Shown piece after piece: positions 44,969 through 53,868 of a DNA stretch of 64,000 nucleotides. The stretch comes from Phycisphaerales bacterium (GTDB taxonomy: Bacteria > Planctomycetota > Phycisphaerae > UBA1845): NCBI GenBank assembly GCA_013140575.1, contig JABFSN010000058.1, forward strand, positions 1 to 64,000, in the 5' to 3' direction. Position 1 is the stretch's first letter, and each line of letters begins with the position of its first letter. Under the pieces are notes generated by a model, which did not search any database, had not been told where the DNA came from, and saw only the letters and a list, made by a program, of their open reading frames with translations. Position numbers and translations under genes: made by a program.

Positions 44969-45202
44969 ATGGGCGGCGCGATAGGGGAACAGAGGTTTCT
45001 TCGAGGAGTGGTCCGGGGCGGGAGGATCGAGATGGGGGACGGGGTCCGGCTGCCTGAAGGTACGGTTGTGCAGATCACGCCGATCGAAATGGACCAGGAT
45101 TCGCTGTTGGAGCTGGTGGGCGAGGCCGTGTCCACCGGGATTTCCGATCTGGCCACACAGCATGACCATTATTTGTACGGATTGGCGAAGCCGAAGGATT
45201 AA
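44969..45202 (+). CDS. Antitoxin-like protein of a PIN toxin pair
   Basis: 77 residues, with a beta-strand motif VRGGRIEMGDGVRLPEGTVV similar to AbrB/DUF104-like antitoxins, and the C-terminal DHYLYGLAKPKD pattern common in the antitoxins of PIN systems. Its TAA overlaps the ATG of the PIN gene by one base. It lies inside the complex I cluster between nuoA and nuoB. Confidence 0.75.
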   Translation: MGGAIGEQRFLRGVVRGGRIEMGDGVRLPEGTVVQITPIEMDQDSLLELVGEAVSTGISDLATQHDHYLYGLAKPKD

Positions 45203-45621
45203 TGGGAAAAGGGGAGACGCTGTTTCTGGACACGGTGGCGCTGCTGGCGCTGGTCAATCGCGATGACGAGCTTCACGAACGATGCGAACGGATTTGGCGC
45301 GAGCACGTGGCCGACGGCTCGCGGTTTATCACCAGCGAATGGGTGCTGGGCGAGTTTCTCGGCGGGGCCTCGCGAAGGCCGTTGCGCGAGGCGGCGTGCC
45401 GGATCGTCGACCGGCTTGCTCGGTCGGAGCGGACCGCCATCGTGCCGGCCTCGCACGAACGGTGGATCGCGGCCTACGAATTGTTCCGCTCGCGATCGGA
45501 TAAGGAATGGTCGTTCGTCGACTGCGGATCCATACTCGTTTGCCAGGAATTGGGGGTTGGGCAGGTGTTCACGCGGGACCGCCATTTCGTACAGGCCGGG
45601 CTGCGCGTGCTGATCGAATGA
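45202..45621 (+). CDS. PIN-domain ribonuclease toxin (VapC-type)
   Basis: 139 residues with the PIN acidic residues: first Asp in LFLDTVALLALVNRDDELH, a Glu in TSEWVLGEF, an Asp in EWSFVDCGSILV and the final TRDRHF. VapC toxins cut tRNA or rRNA and are neutralised by the upstream antitoxin. It forms a unit with the gene at 44969 and interrupts the nuo operon. Confidence 0.85.
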   Translation: MGKGETLFLDTVALLALVNRDDELHERCERIWREHVADGSRFITSEWVLGEFLGGASRRPLREAACRIVDRLARSERTAIVPASHERWIAAYELFRSRSDKEWSFVDCGSILVCQELGVGQVFTRDRHFVQAGLRVLIE

Positions 45622-46351: not shown

Positions 46352-46609
46352 ATGATTCTCGAGTATATCGACGCCGCGCTGTCGAAGGCGAAGTATGAGC
46401 GCCTGGACGAAGGTCGGGACCGGTACTACGGCGAAGTTCCGGTGCTGCGCGGTGTTTGGGCGACGGGTCGGACGCTTGAGGAGTGCCGGTCTACGTTATT
46501 GGAAGTCATCGAGGGATGGCTGATCGTCCGATTGCGGAAGGGGCTGACAATTCCACCGATCGGTAACCGGCGCATCTCGCCGCCGCGAGCGACGCGCGTT
46601 GGGACGTAA
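46352..46609 (+). CDS. hicB: HicB antitoxin
   Basis: 85 residues. Core EVPVLRGVWATGRTLEECR and STLLEVIEGWLIVRLRKG match the HicB fold. Overlaps the hicA start at its 3' end. ATG 46352 is used; GTG 46298 in the same frame is a longer alternative. Order antitoxin-toxin is the reverse of the classic hicAB. Confidence 0.8.
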   Translation: MILEYIDAALSKAKYERLDEGRDRYYGEVPVLRGVWATGRTLEECRSTLLEVIEGWLIVRLRKGLTIPPIGNRRISPPRATRVGT

Positions 46610-46823
46610 ACTGGCACCCCTACGGTGGTCCGAGCTTGTCCGGCGGCTGAAACGATTCGGATTTGGTGGGCCGCATTCGGGAGGTCGCCATCCCTACATG
46701 ATCCGAGACGATCTGGTGCTGACCATTCCAAACCCGCACCATGGCGACATTGGGGTGGAGCTCTTGAAGCGAATTCTGAAGCAGGCGTCCATTTCGAGAG
46801 CGGATTGGATGGCGATGAAATGA
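46599..46823 (+). CDS. hicA: HicA mRNA interferase toxin
   Basis: 74 residues of double-stranded-RNA-binding-like fold: RWSELVRRLKRFGFGG, catalytic-type His in GGRHPYMIR, and a C-terminal LKRILKQASIS helix typical of HicA. TTG start overlapping hicB by 11 bases. It sits between nuoB and nuoC. Confidence 0.85.
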   Translation: MGRKLAPLRWSELVRRLKRFGFGGPHSGGRHPYMIRDDLVLTIPNPHHGDIGVELLKRILKQASISRADWMAMK

Positions 46824-46898
46824 TGGAGGGGTTACGGTCGGCGCGGGGCGGTAGCGGACCGATTTGAATCGCGGACGCGGCCATTGAAGGGCGGAGAT

Positions 46899-47144
46899 GT
46901 GACCGGCGAACAGTTGGTGAAGCACATCAAGGCGCAGCCGTTCAAGCCGTTCCGGATGTATCTGGCGGACGGGCGGGAAGTGCCGGTTGGTCATCCGGAA
47001 TTGGTGTTGTACATCCCCGGGACGCGGACCTGCGTGGTGGCCGATCTGAAGGACAATACGTACGACACGATCGACTTGTTTCTGGTTGCGTCGATCAAAG
47101 TGGGGGCGACCGGGAATGGCGGGCGAAGGCGAAAGCGGGGGTAG
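46899..47144 (+). CDS. 81-aa paralogue 1 of unknown function
   Basis: Contains the QPFKPFRMYLADGREVPVGHPELV core shared with the next gene, then a Lys/Arg-rich end. The two proteins have equal length and clearly arose by duplication. Members with the same core are frequent hypothetical proteins in related genomes (recollection). GTG 46899 after GGGCGGAG is chosen over TTG 46884. Confidence 0.65.
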   Translation: MTGEQLVKHIKAQPFKPFRMYLADGREVPVGHPELVLYIPGTRTCVVADLKDNTYDTIDLFLVASIKVGATGNGGRRRKRG

Positions 47145-47220: not shown

Positions 47221-47466
47221 ATGACCATCGAACCGCTTCGTGAAGCACTGTCGGAGAGGCCGTTTCGCCCATTCAAGCTTCAATTGGGTGACGGCACGGA
47301 AGTGGCTGTGTCGCACCCTGAATGCGTCGCGTTTCATCCGAAGAGCCTGCGGACGATTCTGGTGGCGATGCCCGACGGAGGTTACAAGGCGATCGATCTG
47401 TTTTTGGTTGCGGCGTTGCACAAGCCGAATGGCCGGACGAGTCCGCCTCGCCGCCGCCGTCGGTGA
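47221..47466 (+). CDS. 81-aa paralogue 2 of unknown function
   Basis: Same length and layout as the preceding gene: RPFRPFKLQLGDGTEVAVSH, a shared IDLFLVAAL motif and a basic PRRRRR tail. Predicted small beta-rich protein. 76 bases separate the two copies. Function unknown. Confidence 0.65.
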   Translation: MTIEPLREALSERPFRPFKLQLGDGTEVAVSHPECVAFHPKSLRTILVAMPDGGYKAIDLFLVAALHKPNGRTSPPRRRRR

Positions 47467-47484
47467 TTGTATTCGAGGAATGCG

Positions 47485-48021
47485 ATGGCGCCTGAAGAAA
47501 TCTGCGACCTGTTAAGACGCACGTTTGGGGACACGGTGACGGACACGGTGCTGACGGCGCGTCGGCCGTATGCGGTGGTGAAGGCGGAGCGGTGGCCGGA
47601 GGCTGCGGTGTTTCTGCGGGACGACGCGCGGATGCAATTCAACATGCTGCAGAGCGTCACGGCCATCGACCTTCTGGAAGAGAACAAATTGGCGGCGATC
47701 TATGATCTGTTTTCCATGCCGGTGGTCGGTCCCGAGGAGCCATGTCCCCGGCTGCGGCATGCATTCGCGGTTCGGGTGGTGGTGGACCGGGATAAGCCCC
47801 GGATTCCGACCGTGGCGGATGTCTGGCCGGCGGCGGAGTGGCATGAACGGGAGGCGTACGATTTGATGGGGATCGAGTTTGACGGTCATCCGGATTTGAC
47901 GCGGATCCTGTTGCCGGACGATTGGGAGGGATACCCGCTACGGAAGGATTACGAGTTTCCGATCGAGTATCATGGGATTCCGGCGACGACGGAATACGGG
48001 TTAACGAATCCAAGACATTGA
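47485..48021 (+). CDS. nuoC: NADH-quinone oxidoreductase subunit C
   Basis: Peripheral-arm subunit. Diagnostic WHEREAYDLMGIEFDGHPDL and RILLPDDWEGYPLRKDY are present. 178 residues, not fused to NuoD. ATG 47485 with a GAGG ribosome site. Confidence 0.94.
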   Translation: MAPEEICDLLRRTFGDTVTDTVLTARRPYAVVKAERWPEAAVFLRDDARMQFNMLQSVTAIDLLEENKLAAIYDLFSMPVVGPEEPCPRLRHAFAVRVVVDRDKPRIPTVADVWPAAEWHEREAYDLMGIEFDGHPDLTRILLPDDWEGYPLRKDYEFPIEYHGIPATTEYGLTNPRH

Positions 48022-48031
48022 GCGAACGGAC

Positions 48032-48472
48032 TTGGCATCGCTTTCGAAAAACACGGTCGGCAGCGTCAACGTCCTGAAACGGCTGGGTGCGATCCGGCTG
48101 CGAGAGGCCAGGATCCTGTTGAACAAGCAGCAGTTCGCCGGTGCGATTTACCTTGCCGGATACTCCGTTGAATGCTGGTTGAAGGTGGCGATCTGCAAGG
48201 CGCTGGACCTCGACGAACTTCCCGAGACGTTCGCGAGTCATGAACTTGACGTTTTGTTGTTTCACAGCGGCTTGCAGCGGCGCATACAAAAGCGCCGGTC
48301 GCAACAGGCGATGAAGGCGTTTCAAATGGTGGCGGGTGTTTGGCGGATGGACAGGAAAAACGCGATTCGCTACGCGGACCCTCGCGTTTATAACTTTCAG
48401 GATGCCGGTGAGTTCTTGAGGGTGGTGAACGGCAGACAAGGAATCGTCCCTTGGCTCAGAAAACAAATTTAG
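48032..48472 (+). CDS. HEPN-domain protein 1
   Basis: 146 residues, all helical. The core FAGAIYLAGYSVECWLK (~35-51) is the HEPN helix 2 pattern, and SHELDVLLFHSGL (~69-81) fits the helix 3 pattern. HEPN proteins often are RNases or NTase partners in toxin-antitoxin systems, but no clear RX4-6H catalytic motif is visible, so activity is uncertain. Start TTG 48032, 10 bases after nuoC. It overlaps the BolA-like gene by 22 bases. Confidence 0.75.
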   Translation: MASLSKNTVGSVNVLKRLGAIRLREARILLNKQQFAGAIYLAGYSVECWLKVAICKALDLDELPETFASHELDVLLFHSGLQRRIQKRRSQQAMKAFQMVAGVWRMDRKNAIRYADPRVYNFQDAGEFLRVVNGRQGIVPWLRKQI

Positions 48473-48765
48473 TCGTCGCGGCCGGAAAGATCAAGGCGGC
48501 GATTGAGGAGTTTGTGGCACCTGCCGAGAAGGTGAATATTCGCATATTCGCGTCCTCGCCGGGGCTGTTGAGAGCGTTTGTCGGCAGTGATAAGTTCAAG
48601 GGGCTCTCGCCGATGGCCCGCCAGCGCGCGATCTGGAAATACCTGGATGGGAGGCTGAATTGGGACTACCGGCGGTTCTGTGCCGCCGTCCATGCACTGG
48701 ATGTAAAGGAGTTCCAGGAGCGGACGCTGCCTTCCTGGGATAACGGGGGCGGAAACGGTGTCTAA
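48451..48765 (+). CDS. BolA-like (class II KH-fold) partner 1
   Basis: 104 residues. The segment VGSDKFKGLSPMARQRAIW followed by L...RL...AAVHALDVKEFQE reproduces the BolA pattern V-SD-F-G---R-R-(I/M)---L---L----VHAL-----(T/E) by eye. A TTG start with AGGAA upstream overlaps the HEPN gene, and its stop overlaps nuoD by 8 bases. It is probably the HEPN partner or antidote (inference). Low-confidence family name, strong linkage. Confidence 0.6.
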   Translation: MAQKTNLVVAAGKIKAAIEEFVAPAEKVNIRIFASSPGLLRAFVGSDKFKGLSPMARQRAIWKYLDGRLNWDYRRFCAAVHALDVKEFQERTLPSWDNGGGNGV

Positions 48766-49969
48766 CGGCGTACTGACAGTTCAGACCCAGCCCGACGTGC
48801 TGGCCGATCTCGATCGGGAAACGATCGGGCAGGGCGATCTGCGCACCGAGGAGATGCTGGTCAACATGGGGCCGCAGCATCCGGCGACGCATGGGGTGTT
48901 GCGCGTGGTGCTGCGGACGGACGGCGAGATGATCCTGGAGGCCGTTCCGCACATTGGGTATCTGCATCGCTGCGCGGAGAAGATCGGCGAGAATGTTCAG
49001 CCTTATCAGTTCATTCCGTATACGGACCGGATGGATTATCTGGCGGGGATGAACAATAATCAGGCGTTTGCCATTGCGGTGGAGCAACTGTGCGGGATCG
49101 AAGTGCCGGAACGGGCGAAATACATACGGGTTATATTCGCGGAACTGAATCGCATTGCGTCGCATCTGGTGTCGTTCGGGACGTACGGTCTGGACATGGG
49201 TGCGTTTACGCCGTTTCTGTATGCGTTTCGGGAGCGGGAGATGATCCTGGATTTGTTTGAGAGCGCGTGTGGCGCGCGATTAACATACAGCTATATCACG
49301 GTGGGCGGGGTTCACGACGACCTGCCGGACCGGTTTCTGGATGTCCTGTCGGAGTTTCTGGATTATTTCGAGCCGAAGATACCGGAATACAACCAACTGC
49401 TGAGTTTCAACCACATATTCGTCAAACGGACGGGAAACGTCGGCGTGATCAGCGCCGAGGACGCGGTGCGGTGGGCGTTGACGGGTCCGTGTCTGCGGGC
49501 GAGCGGAGTGCATTGGGACCTGCGCAAGAGCACGCCGTACGAGATTTACGACCGGTTCGATTTCGAGATTCCGGTGGGCGTGCCCGGCGGCAGTGATGGG
49601 ATTCCGCGGGGGGTGGTGGTGGGCGACTGCTGGTGCCGGTATTTCGTGCGGGTGCTGGAGATGCAGCAGTCGTGCCGGATCATCCGGCAGGCCATGAAGC
49701 AGATTCCAGACGGAGCCACACAGGCGGACAAGTTGAAGAACCTGAAGCTTCCGGCGGACGAAACGTACGTGGAAATCGAGAACCCGCGCGGTCAACTCGG
49801 TTTCTACATACAGGGCGACGGATCGACGATTCCATCGCGGGTCAAGGCGCGTGGTCCGAGTTTTTGCAACATCTCGATCCTGAACCACATCGGGCGCGGC
49901 TGCCTTCTGGCCGACATACCGGCCATCGTGGGGAGCATCGATATCGTGATGGGCGAGGTGGATCGGTGA
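48758..49969 (+). CDS. nuoD: NADH-quinone oxidoreductase subunit D
   Basis: Quinone-binding 49-kDa-type subunit. NMGPQHPATHGVLRVVL, DRMDYLAGMNNN, IRVIFAELNRIASHL and the C-terminal GSIDIVMGEVDR are diagnostic. 403 residues. GTG 48758, overlapping the BolA-like gene. Confidence 0.96.
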   Translation: MSNGVLTVQTQPDVLADLDRETIGQGDLRTEEMLVNMGPQHPATHGVLRVVLRTDGEMILEAVPHIGYLHRCAEKIGENVQPYQFIPYTDRMDYLAGMNNNQAFAIAVEQLCGIEVPERAKYIRVIFAELNRIASHLVSFGTYGLDMGAFTPFLYAFREREMILDLFESACGARLTYSYITVGGVHDDLPDRFLDVLSEFLDYFEPKIPEYNQLLSFNHIFVKRTGNVGVISAEDAVRWALTGPCLRASGVHWDLRKSTPYEIYDRFDFEIPVGVPGGSDGIPRGVVVGDCWCRYFVRVLEMQQSCRIIRQAMKQIPDGATQADKLKNLKLPADETYVEIENPRGQLGFYIQGDGSTIPSRVKARGPSFCNISILNHIGRGCLLADIPAIVGSIDIVMGEVDR

Positions 49970-52334: not shown

Positions 52335-52811
52335 ATGTCGCTTCTGAATCGCGTGTCGCCGGTGGAGAGTCTTCAGGAAATCGAGAGCGCCCAGTCGGAC
52401 CGGTATTGGGAAGCGATGGCCTTGGCGGTTTCTGACGGCGGCCACTCGTATGGCGCGTGCTATCTGTTGGGGTACGTCATCGAATTGGCGATCAAGAGCG
52501 CCTATTACAGATTTGTCGGCGCGTCGCCGGTCGCGGATGTGGGGCGTCATCTTCAGGCCTCCGGTCTTAAGGGGCGCGAGCGACATGATCTTGAAGCGTG
52601 GTACGAGATTCTGTTTTCGTCGCGGATTCAGCGGGGGAATCCGATGGATCCCGTTGTTGCTGGAGCCTTCAAGCAGCGGATTCAGGTTGCCGCCCGGCAC
52701 TGGCGCGAGATTCTGCGCTATCGGCGGGCGATCCCCGCGGAGAGCGAGTGCAACGAGCTCCTGGGTATCGCGGACTGGCTGATTCGAAATCATCGATCGC
52801 TGTGGAGTTGA
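52335..52811 (+). CDS. HEPN-domain protein 2
   Basis: 158 residues, helical. The core GACYLLGYVIELAIKSAYYR (~40-59) matches the HEPN1 core, and RHDLEAWYEIL (~83-93) matches its downstream motif. As in HEPN1 no canonical RX4-6H is evident. ATG 52335, 18 bases after nuoJ. Followed 5 bases later by a small gene, repeating the arrangement seen between nuoC and nuoD. Confidence 0.72.
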   Translation: MSLLNRVSPVESLQEIESAQSDRYWEAMALAVSDGGHSYGACYLLGYVIELAIKSAYYRFVGASPVADVGRHLQASGLKGRERHDLEAWYEILFSSRIQRGNPMDPVVAGAFKQRIQVAARHWREILRYRRAIPAESECNELLGIADWLIRNHRSLWS

Positions 52812-52816
52812 CCGCC

Positions 52817-53140
52817 GTGCCGGTTCAAAGACGAAAGGCCAAACCTCCCCACTCGCGACCGGACCTGGTGCGGCGGCTCGCGGTCGAGTTGAAGTCGAAA
52901 GAGGGCCGCTCCGCTCGAACGGCGAAGAACGCACCGCTCGTCATCGAAGAGGAGCAGACGTACGGGCGGGCGCTGCACGTGACGGTTATCTGGGACAAGT
53001 GGTCAGGCGTTCCCCTGGAGGAACGAGGCGCGATCATCACGGACGCTTACAGGCAAGCGGGCCGGGATGCGGAGCTTGAGATCATGACGCTGGTGATGGG
53101 AGTGACGGCGCAGGAGGCTGGGAATCTCGGTATCAGCTGA
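52817..53140 (+). CDS. Small HEPN partner 2 (BolA-like?)
   Basis: 107 residues. A basic N-terminal half precedes a compact domain HVTVIWDKWSGVPLEERGAI followed by IT..AY and VMGVTAQEA. The spacing of W/F-G-x3-5-E-R-x-x-I/V and the final helix resembles BolA but is weaker than partner 1. GTG 52817 with GGAG at 52804 is chosen; TTG 52808 overlapping the HEPN stop is the alternative. Ends 9 bases before nuoK. Confidence 0.5.
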   Translation: MPVQRRKAKPPHSRPDLVRRLAVELKSKEGRSARTAKNAPLVIEEEQTYGRALHVTVIWDKWSGVPLEERGAIITDAYRQAGRDAELEIMTLVMGVTAQEAGNLGIS

Positions 53141-53470: not shown

Positions 53471-53595
53471 CCGGATTGATTAGGCCACGCGCGTGAGTTA
53501 TGTGCGATGCGACCGTGATGTGGCAAAGCGTCGTTCATTCGGCCGATTCGATCTAACCTTTGGCCAGCGGCGGAGTTTCGTTCAGGCAACTTACA

Positions 53596-53868
53596 ATGGA
53601 ACCCTTTGGCTGGTTTTTCTACGTCATGATTGGATCGCTCCTCTTGGCAGGAGCATGGAAATGCATCGAGGCGAGTATTGAATTGAAAGAGGATCTGCGT
53701 CGCAAGTGCCGTCTATTGAAATTGGACATGTCGGAAAGTCAGGTGAAAAGCACACTGGGAGAACCGTCAAAAGTTGAGATGCAAGCTCCAATGTGCCACT
53801 GGAAGTACCCAGGTGGAGCAACGGTGACCTTCACGAATGGAAAGCTCACTGGATGGAACGAGCCGTGA
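53596..53868 (+). CDS. Membrane protein with BamE-like domain
   Basis: 90 residues. One N-terminal helix (FGWFFYVMIGSLLLAGAWKC) then MSESQVKSTLGEPSKVE and YPGGATVTFTNGKLTGW, the SmpA/BamE beta-sheet pattern. Clearly more AT-rich than its neighbours and inserted between nuoK and nuoL, so it looks recently acquired. Not BamE itself (no lipobox). Function unknown. Confidence 0.6.
   Translation: MEPFGWFFYVMIGSLLLAGAWKCIEASIELKEDLRRKCRLLKLDMSESQVKSTLGEPSKVEMQAPMCHWKYPGGATVTFTNGKLTGWNEP

Follow-up and report, generated by a model that had tools for sequence, protein, structure and literature searches.

Overlapping genes for a HEPN-type and a BolA-fold protein in a planctomycete nuo operon look like a toxin–antidote pair

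INTRODUCTION

Between nuoC and nuoD of a Phycisphaerales bacterium lie two small genes that overlap and encode a HEPN-type protein and a protein resembling BolA; what are they doing there? The two genes lie in the window analysed here, a stretch of 64,000 nt from a genome of 5.05 Mb. The fold of BolA is of the class II KH type and is usually linked to Fe–S and glutaredoxin biology, and known BolA proteins carry a conserved C-terminal His that serves as Fe–S/glutaredoxin ligand. HEPN proteins of the HEPN-T clade (PF05168), in turn, include proteins associated with minimal nucleotidyltransferases (MNT; PMC3710099), and an MNT–HEPN module is reported to lie within the lysine operon of T. thermophilus HB8, as an insertion that HB27 lacks (PMC2701414). 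The location of the present pair has, in this biosynthetic operon, a published precedent. The suspicion that no HEPN–BolA system has been described, voiced when the sequence was first annotated, holds for the open-licence literature searched, and BolA goes unmentioned in the main text of two surveys (PMC3710099 and PMC2701414).

RESULTS

Gene layout

Both genes begin with TTG and encode proteins of 146 and 104 residues, the predicted toxin and the predicted antidote, respectively (Table 1). The first-pass annotation had described a HEPN gene overlapping a BolA-like gene by 22 nt within the nuo operon: its coordinates proved exact, and Pfam identifies the flanking genes as nuoC and nuoD. The shared 22 nt are likely to provide translational coupling. 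In their codon-position GC contents (0.58/0.38/0.71 for the HEPN gene and 0.59/0.44/0.72 for the partner gene), the pair resembles the nuo genes. The order nuoC–HEPN–partner–nuoD also occurs in genome G632, where the two proteins are 49–50% and 42% identical to those of the window, and is repeated at four further loci (L204, L205, L207 and L304); because of this recurrence, the arrangement is not attributable to chance.

Table 1. Coordinates of the two gene pairs and of the genes flanking the first
Feature	Position in window	Strand	Evidence
nuoC, upstream neighbour, ending 10 nt before the HEPN gene	47467..48021	+	PF00329, 9.5e-42
HEPN-T-type protein (predicted toxin)	48032..48472	+	ORF; PF05168 in relatives; PADLOC PDC-M28A, 8.3e-4
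22-nt overlap of the two frames	48451..48472	+	ORF coordinates
BolA-fold partner (predicted antidote)	48451..48765	+	Profile against PDB; AlphaFold2; Foldseek
nuoD, downstream neighbour; its start overlaps the partner end by 8 nt	48758..49969	+	PF00346, 1.8e-93
Second HEPN, same family, between nuoJ and nuoK	52335..52811	+	A2 profile, 6e-29
Second partner, class C, divergent BolA-like	52817..53140	+	Class B versus class C profile comparison

Fold of the partner

Compared with the Pfam BolA family (PF01722), the partner of the window scores 18.8 bits (E = 0.002), below the gathering score of 25.7; nine of the 13 aligned partners reach this family at E ≤ 1, and none of the 13 has a nucleotidyltransferase match in Pfam. 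A profile of these 13 partners (A1) is considerably more telling: the first 20 places in a search of the PDB are all taken by BolA-family proteins, the best at 1.5e-8, and E. coli BolA is reached at 2.6e-7. The AlphaFold2 model (pLDDT 87.7) has the order α-β-β-α-α-β-α, and its top 12 Foldseek matches are again BolA-family proteins (probability 1.00), albeit with moderate TM-scores of 0.45–0.66. Taken together, profile and fold are conclusive that the partner is a remote BolA homologue, as had been surmised by eye from its motif pattern.

The partner shares with BolA and IbaG (YrbA) of PF01722 the fold, the order of secondary structure and the region of the V-x-S-x-x-F-x-G and R-Q/H motifs; it differs from them in falling below the Pfam cut-off, in being paired with a HEPN protein, and in the His of the C-terminal HAL motif, which is kept in only five of 36 partners, that of the window among them. 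Within the same set, Phe49 is invariant (36/36) and Arg57 is kept in 31. The class itself is almost devoid of canonical BolA: 1 of 198 genomes has a protein that scores above the Pfam cut-off.

The relatives of the partner were recovered with profile searches, where single-sequence searches had failed: a pattern scan of the wider genome contigs with a single partner protein gave no match, and a single-sequence search of 392 genomes of the phylum returned, besides the window itself, only matches at E 1e-3. One of these matches (L007) was rejected, as it contains an internal stop and overlaps other long frames.

Putative active site of the HEPN protein

The HEPN protein of the window has no direct match of its own in the Pfam search, and the HEPN profile has no significant match among PDB sequences. 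PF05168 is, nonetheless, matched by 19 of its 24 aligned relatives (best 6.4e-11), and L010, 49–50% identical to the window protein, exceeds the curated cut-off (7.8e-5). On these sequence relationships, we place the protein in the HEPN superfamily, within HEPN-T (PF05168), in keeping with the first-pass annotation. Distant relatives are found on mobile carriers, namely in three plasmid records and one phage record.

In the alignment of 24 HEPNs, Tyr40, Gly43, Glu47, Trp104 and Arg113 are invariant, and Arg22, Ala26, Leu29, Leu50 and His70 are more than 90% conserved. The canonical HEPN motif, Rx4-6H, is not conserved in the family alignment, and the protein could, therefore, be non-catalytic. 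For HEPN-T proteins in which another residue replaces the His of this motif, Anantharaman et al. (2013; PMC3710099) propose an alternative active site that combines a conserved His elsewhere with the basic residue; they also describe a further acidic residue, which belongs to an Ex3[KR] motif. In the present family an E-x3-K/H/R set of this kind is conserved, and by sequence Glu47-x3-Lys51, His70 and Arg113 of the window protein fit the proposed site.

Distribution and loss

The partner profile matches 37 of 298 genomes of the class (about one in eight), at 55 places. In 36 cases the gene immediately upstream, in the same orientation, is an intact HEPN of this family, such that the recurrence of the pair in other genomes is established; several copies may occur in a single genome. 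The two findings that the first-pass annotation had named as refuting its idea, a partner without the BolA/KH fold and genes that rarely co-occur elsewhere, are both contradicted by these results. By hand classification, the remaining 19 places comprise three with a decayed HEPN, nine without one, three at contig ends and four that are doubtful, the last being the four weakest matches (L131, L132, L135 and L136; E about 1e-4), which lie in long frames. Several of the solo partners sit at the same operon sites as pairs elsewhere.

Seen from the side of the HEPN, nearly all of 60 matches have a small gene directly downstream, and only about one in 60 (L185) lacks a small partner, although in L125 the partner frame after the HEPN looks broken. 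In L185, the HEPN is followed by a large ORF for a KGGVGR-type ATPase and preceded by a translation-factor-like GTPase (fusA-like, by eye). The asymmetry of loss gives a Fisher p of 0.005 or 0.001, depending on how the decayed HEPN copies are counted, which is indicative only, because the rows are not phylogenetically independent; the solo-gene counts themselves vary with score thresholds, genome bins and the manual reading of loci. That partners survive alone, whereas a HEPN alone is rare, fits a HEPN toxin and a BolA-like antidote. Two general marks of toxin–antitoxin systems are thus seen in the hand-classified set: recurrent linkage of two genes, and persistence of the antitoxin without the toxin, with the reverse being rare.

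The frames overlap in 39 of 44 BolA-type pairs, by exactly 22 nt in nine of them. The tree of 37 HEPNs and that of the 37 corresponding BolA-type partners agree in their main clades, and the pairwise distances of the two proteins are correlated (Mantel r = 0.645, equalled in 0 of 5000 permutations); such co-divergence is expected of proteins that function jointly or, at a minimum, are passed on together.

The HEPN–BolA pairs form one branch within a broader family in which a HEPN is joined to a small partner. Of 80 loci found with the HEPN in the wider genome contigs, 65 have a different partner of ~130 aa and nine score as BolA-type, two of these nine being borderline; most other phyla have the ~130 aa partner, its modules occurring in Acidobacteria, Planctomycetota, Bacteroidota, Actinobacteria, Proteobacteria and others. 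These modules share the HEPN family and the gene order with the BolA-type pairs, and the 22-nt overlap is near-constant in them (58 of 63 pairs), but the partner protein differs: it has no Pfam name, and hhalign relates it to the BolA-type partners with a probability of only 9. Its model (pLDDT 93) has the order α-β-β-α-α-β-α plus a hairpin, and gives no significant match in Foldseek (best E 0.06), an antitoxin of a HEPN–MNT system and BolA3 being among the weak ones.

Genomic sites

The pairs are frequently embedded between co-directional genes of essential operons. A pair lies between groES and groEL in four genomes, including that of the window (contig C267), and the partner alone is found there in one; other such sites are gltB|gltD, moxR|DUF58, atpG|atpD, rplJ|rplL and rny|ymdB, and further pairs adjoin etfA, pgk|rpe, sat and ahcY. 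The flanking genes were identified with Pfam for groE, atp, rpl, rny/ymdB and moxR, and by eye for the rest. Some pairs lie outside any evident operon, for example L085 and L124.

Eight distinct members of the window's subfamily were found (the window, G632, G534, L203, L204, L205, L207 and L304), every one of them in a nuo operon: nuoC|nuoD is the site of six and nuoB|nuoC that of G534, whereas L203 immediately precedes nuoD on a sequence that is truncated upstream. Across 30 nuo loci of the family, the nuoC|nuoD gap is at most 157 nt in 23, the closest relatives among them; where nuoD is most similar to that of the window (85% identical), the gap is 12–33 nt and contains no pair. The seven long gaps contain the pair in three cases, a Uma2-like ORF (DUF820-like, by eye) in three, all from a single genus (L291, L292 and L293; g269), and a transposase-like ORF in one (L302). 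The divergence of the nuo pair is weakly correlated with that of nuoD (r = 0.22 for the HEPN and 0.43 for the partner) and, therefore, does not demonstrate strict vertical descent of the pair in this operon.

A second pair lies further downstream in the nuo operon of the window (Table 1), where the GTG start of the partner was chosen by comparison with relatives. This partner scores only 0.012–0.019 with the A1 profile; however, hhalign joins the class B and class C partner profiles with a probability of 95.5 (E = 5e-9), and by this comparison class C is a divergent sister of the BolA-type partners. At nuoJ|nuoK, L178 and L181 likewise carry a pair, and G632 has a partner without HEPN.

DISCUSSION

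The HEPN–BolA pairs look like an undescribed toxin–antidote system. We consider it moderately probable that the pair is a two-gene, toxin–antidote-like module, with a HEPN RNase and a BolA-fold antidote, housed inside housekeeping operons. The overlap of the frames, the co-divergence of the proteins and the asymmetric loss of the HEPN indirectly support such a function; gene order, loss pattern and co-divergence are what suggest that the BolA-like protein is the antidote. RNase activity, toxicity, direct binding and neutralization are inferred. The patchy presence of the pair at nuoC|nuoD, its multiple copies per genome and the nearby HicBA-like and PIN modules also speak for this reading. Most likely, the HEPN-T protein would cut RNA via the non-canonical site formed by Glu47-x3-Lys51, His70 and Arg113, whereas the BolA-fold partner, with its class II KH-like structure, would bind its cognate HEPN and hold it inactive. 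The partner is probably translated by coupling through the overlap and would, in this way, be made in step with the HEPN; the latter may then be freed once the operon transcript, or the labile partner, is no longer supplied. Having settled in housekeeping operons, where expression would be guaranteed and deletion costly, the module may have split into subfamilies, each tied to particular operons. Long residence in particular operons is, however, not typical of mobile toxin–antitoxin modules, and counts against the toxin–antidote reading.

The nearest well-known arrangement is HEPN–MNT (HepT–MntA, type VII; PMC7641770, PMC11586414), which likewise consists of two small adjacent genes, one of them encoding a HEPN. 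The present pair departs from it in that the partner has a BolA fold instead of being a minimal nucleotidyltransferase, the HEPN family lacks Rx4-6H, the genes overlap and the clades are tied to operons. Since the partner is not a nucleotidyltransferase, AMPylation of the HEPN by its partner is not to be expected.

The main rival of the toxin–antidote reading is that the pair regulates its own operon: the HEPN would bind or cut the polycistronic mRNA from which it is itself translated, and the KH-like partner would confer RNA specificity, so that the pair sets the ratios of the host-operon subunits without acting as a toxin. The confinement of the eight-member subfamily to nuo operons speaks for it, as do the grouping of the groE, glt, moxR and ahcY pairs largely by site, the position of one pair between rny (RNase Y) and ymdB, the missing Rx4-6H of canonical toxins and the KH fold of BolA itself. 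Nevertheless, we judge it unlikely: the closest nuoD relatives do without the pair at nuoC|nuoD, from which it follows that the nuo operon does not need it; the agreement between clade and site could equally reflect vertical inheritance of old insertions; and the partner stays where the HEPN has been lost. The missing motif is also compatible with an inactive genomic passenger, that is, a non-catalytic HEPN and its neighbour kept only because they are harmless where they are, and the patchy distribution and the existence of HEPN remnants are in line with this. We regard such a passenger as quite improbable, as the frames remain intact across 40–60% amino-acid divergence, Glu47, Trp104 and Arg113 are invariant among the HEPNs and Phe49 among the partners, and the two proteins co-diverge.

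A role in defence is possible and would be compatible with the toxin–antidote reading. Shut-off of host transcription by a phage would, on this account, deplete the BolA-like antidote and free the HEPN RNase, leading to abortive infection (Abi), and an operon-embedded module would presumably be well placed to sense such a shut-off. HEPN proteins are a frequent component of Abi systems (PMC3710099), and PDC-M28A, a candidate defence family of PADLOC, is matched by relatives of the present HEPN at 3e-7 to 7e-10 (8.3e-4 for the window protein). However, PDC-M28A, which is not named in the open-licence literature searched, is itself only a candidate, and the pairs lie in essential operons with no defence-island context; abortive infection as the function accordingly seems to us a rather poor prospect. 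As a further, speculative step, the toxin–antidote reading could be extended to operon-resident guardians, in which every subfamily belongs to a single essential operon (nuo, groES–groEL, gltBD or moxR–DUF58), is co-transcribed with it and couples the integrity or flow of the transcript to the RNase via the BolA-fold antidote; to this extension we attach a low probability.

If the toxin–antidote reading is correct, BolA would be a new partner fold for HEPN two-gene modules, and BolA-fold proteins would gain a possible role as antidotes. There would then be bacteria with toxin–antitoxin-like modules inside essential operons, resident for long enough to have formed operon-specific subfamilies, and such operon-resident pairs would make the chromosomal persistence of these modules directly testable.

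Other small genes of the nuo operon

The nuo operon of the window contains further small genes. Between nuoA and nuoB, a small ORF without Pfam match (44969–45202) is followed by a PIN-domain (VapC-like) gene (45202–45621; PF01850, 3.6e-14), and the two form another toxin–antitoxin-like pair. A HicB-like gene (46352–46609; UPF0150, PF21748, 8e-28) overlaps a hicA gene (46599–46823; PF07927, 2.4e-11) between nuoB and nuoC; HicBA, of which this is an example (46352–46823), resembles the HEPN–BolA pair in being a small two-gene module, but the protein families are unrelated. Between hicA and nuoC lie two similar ORFs of ~80–86 aa (46884–47144 and 47221–47466), apparently paralogous and without Pfam match, and an ORF of 102 aa (53560–53868), likewise without Pfam match, separates nuoK from nuoL.
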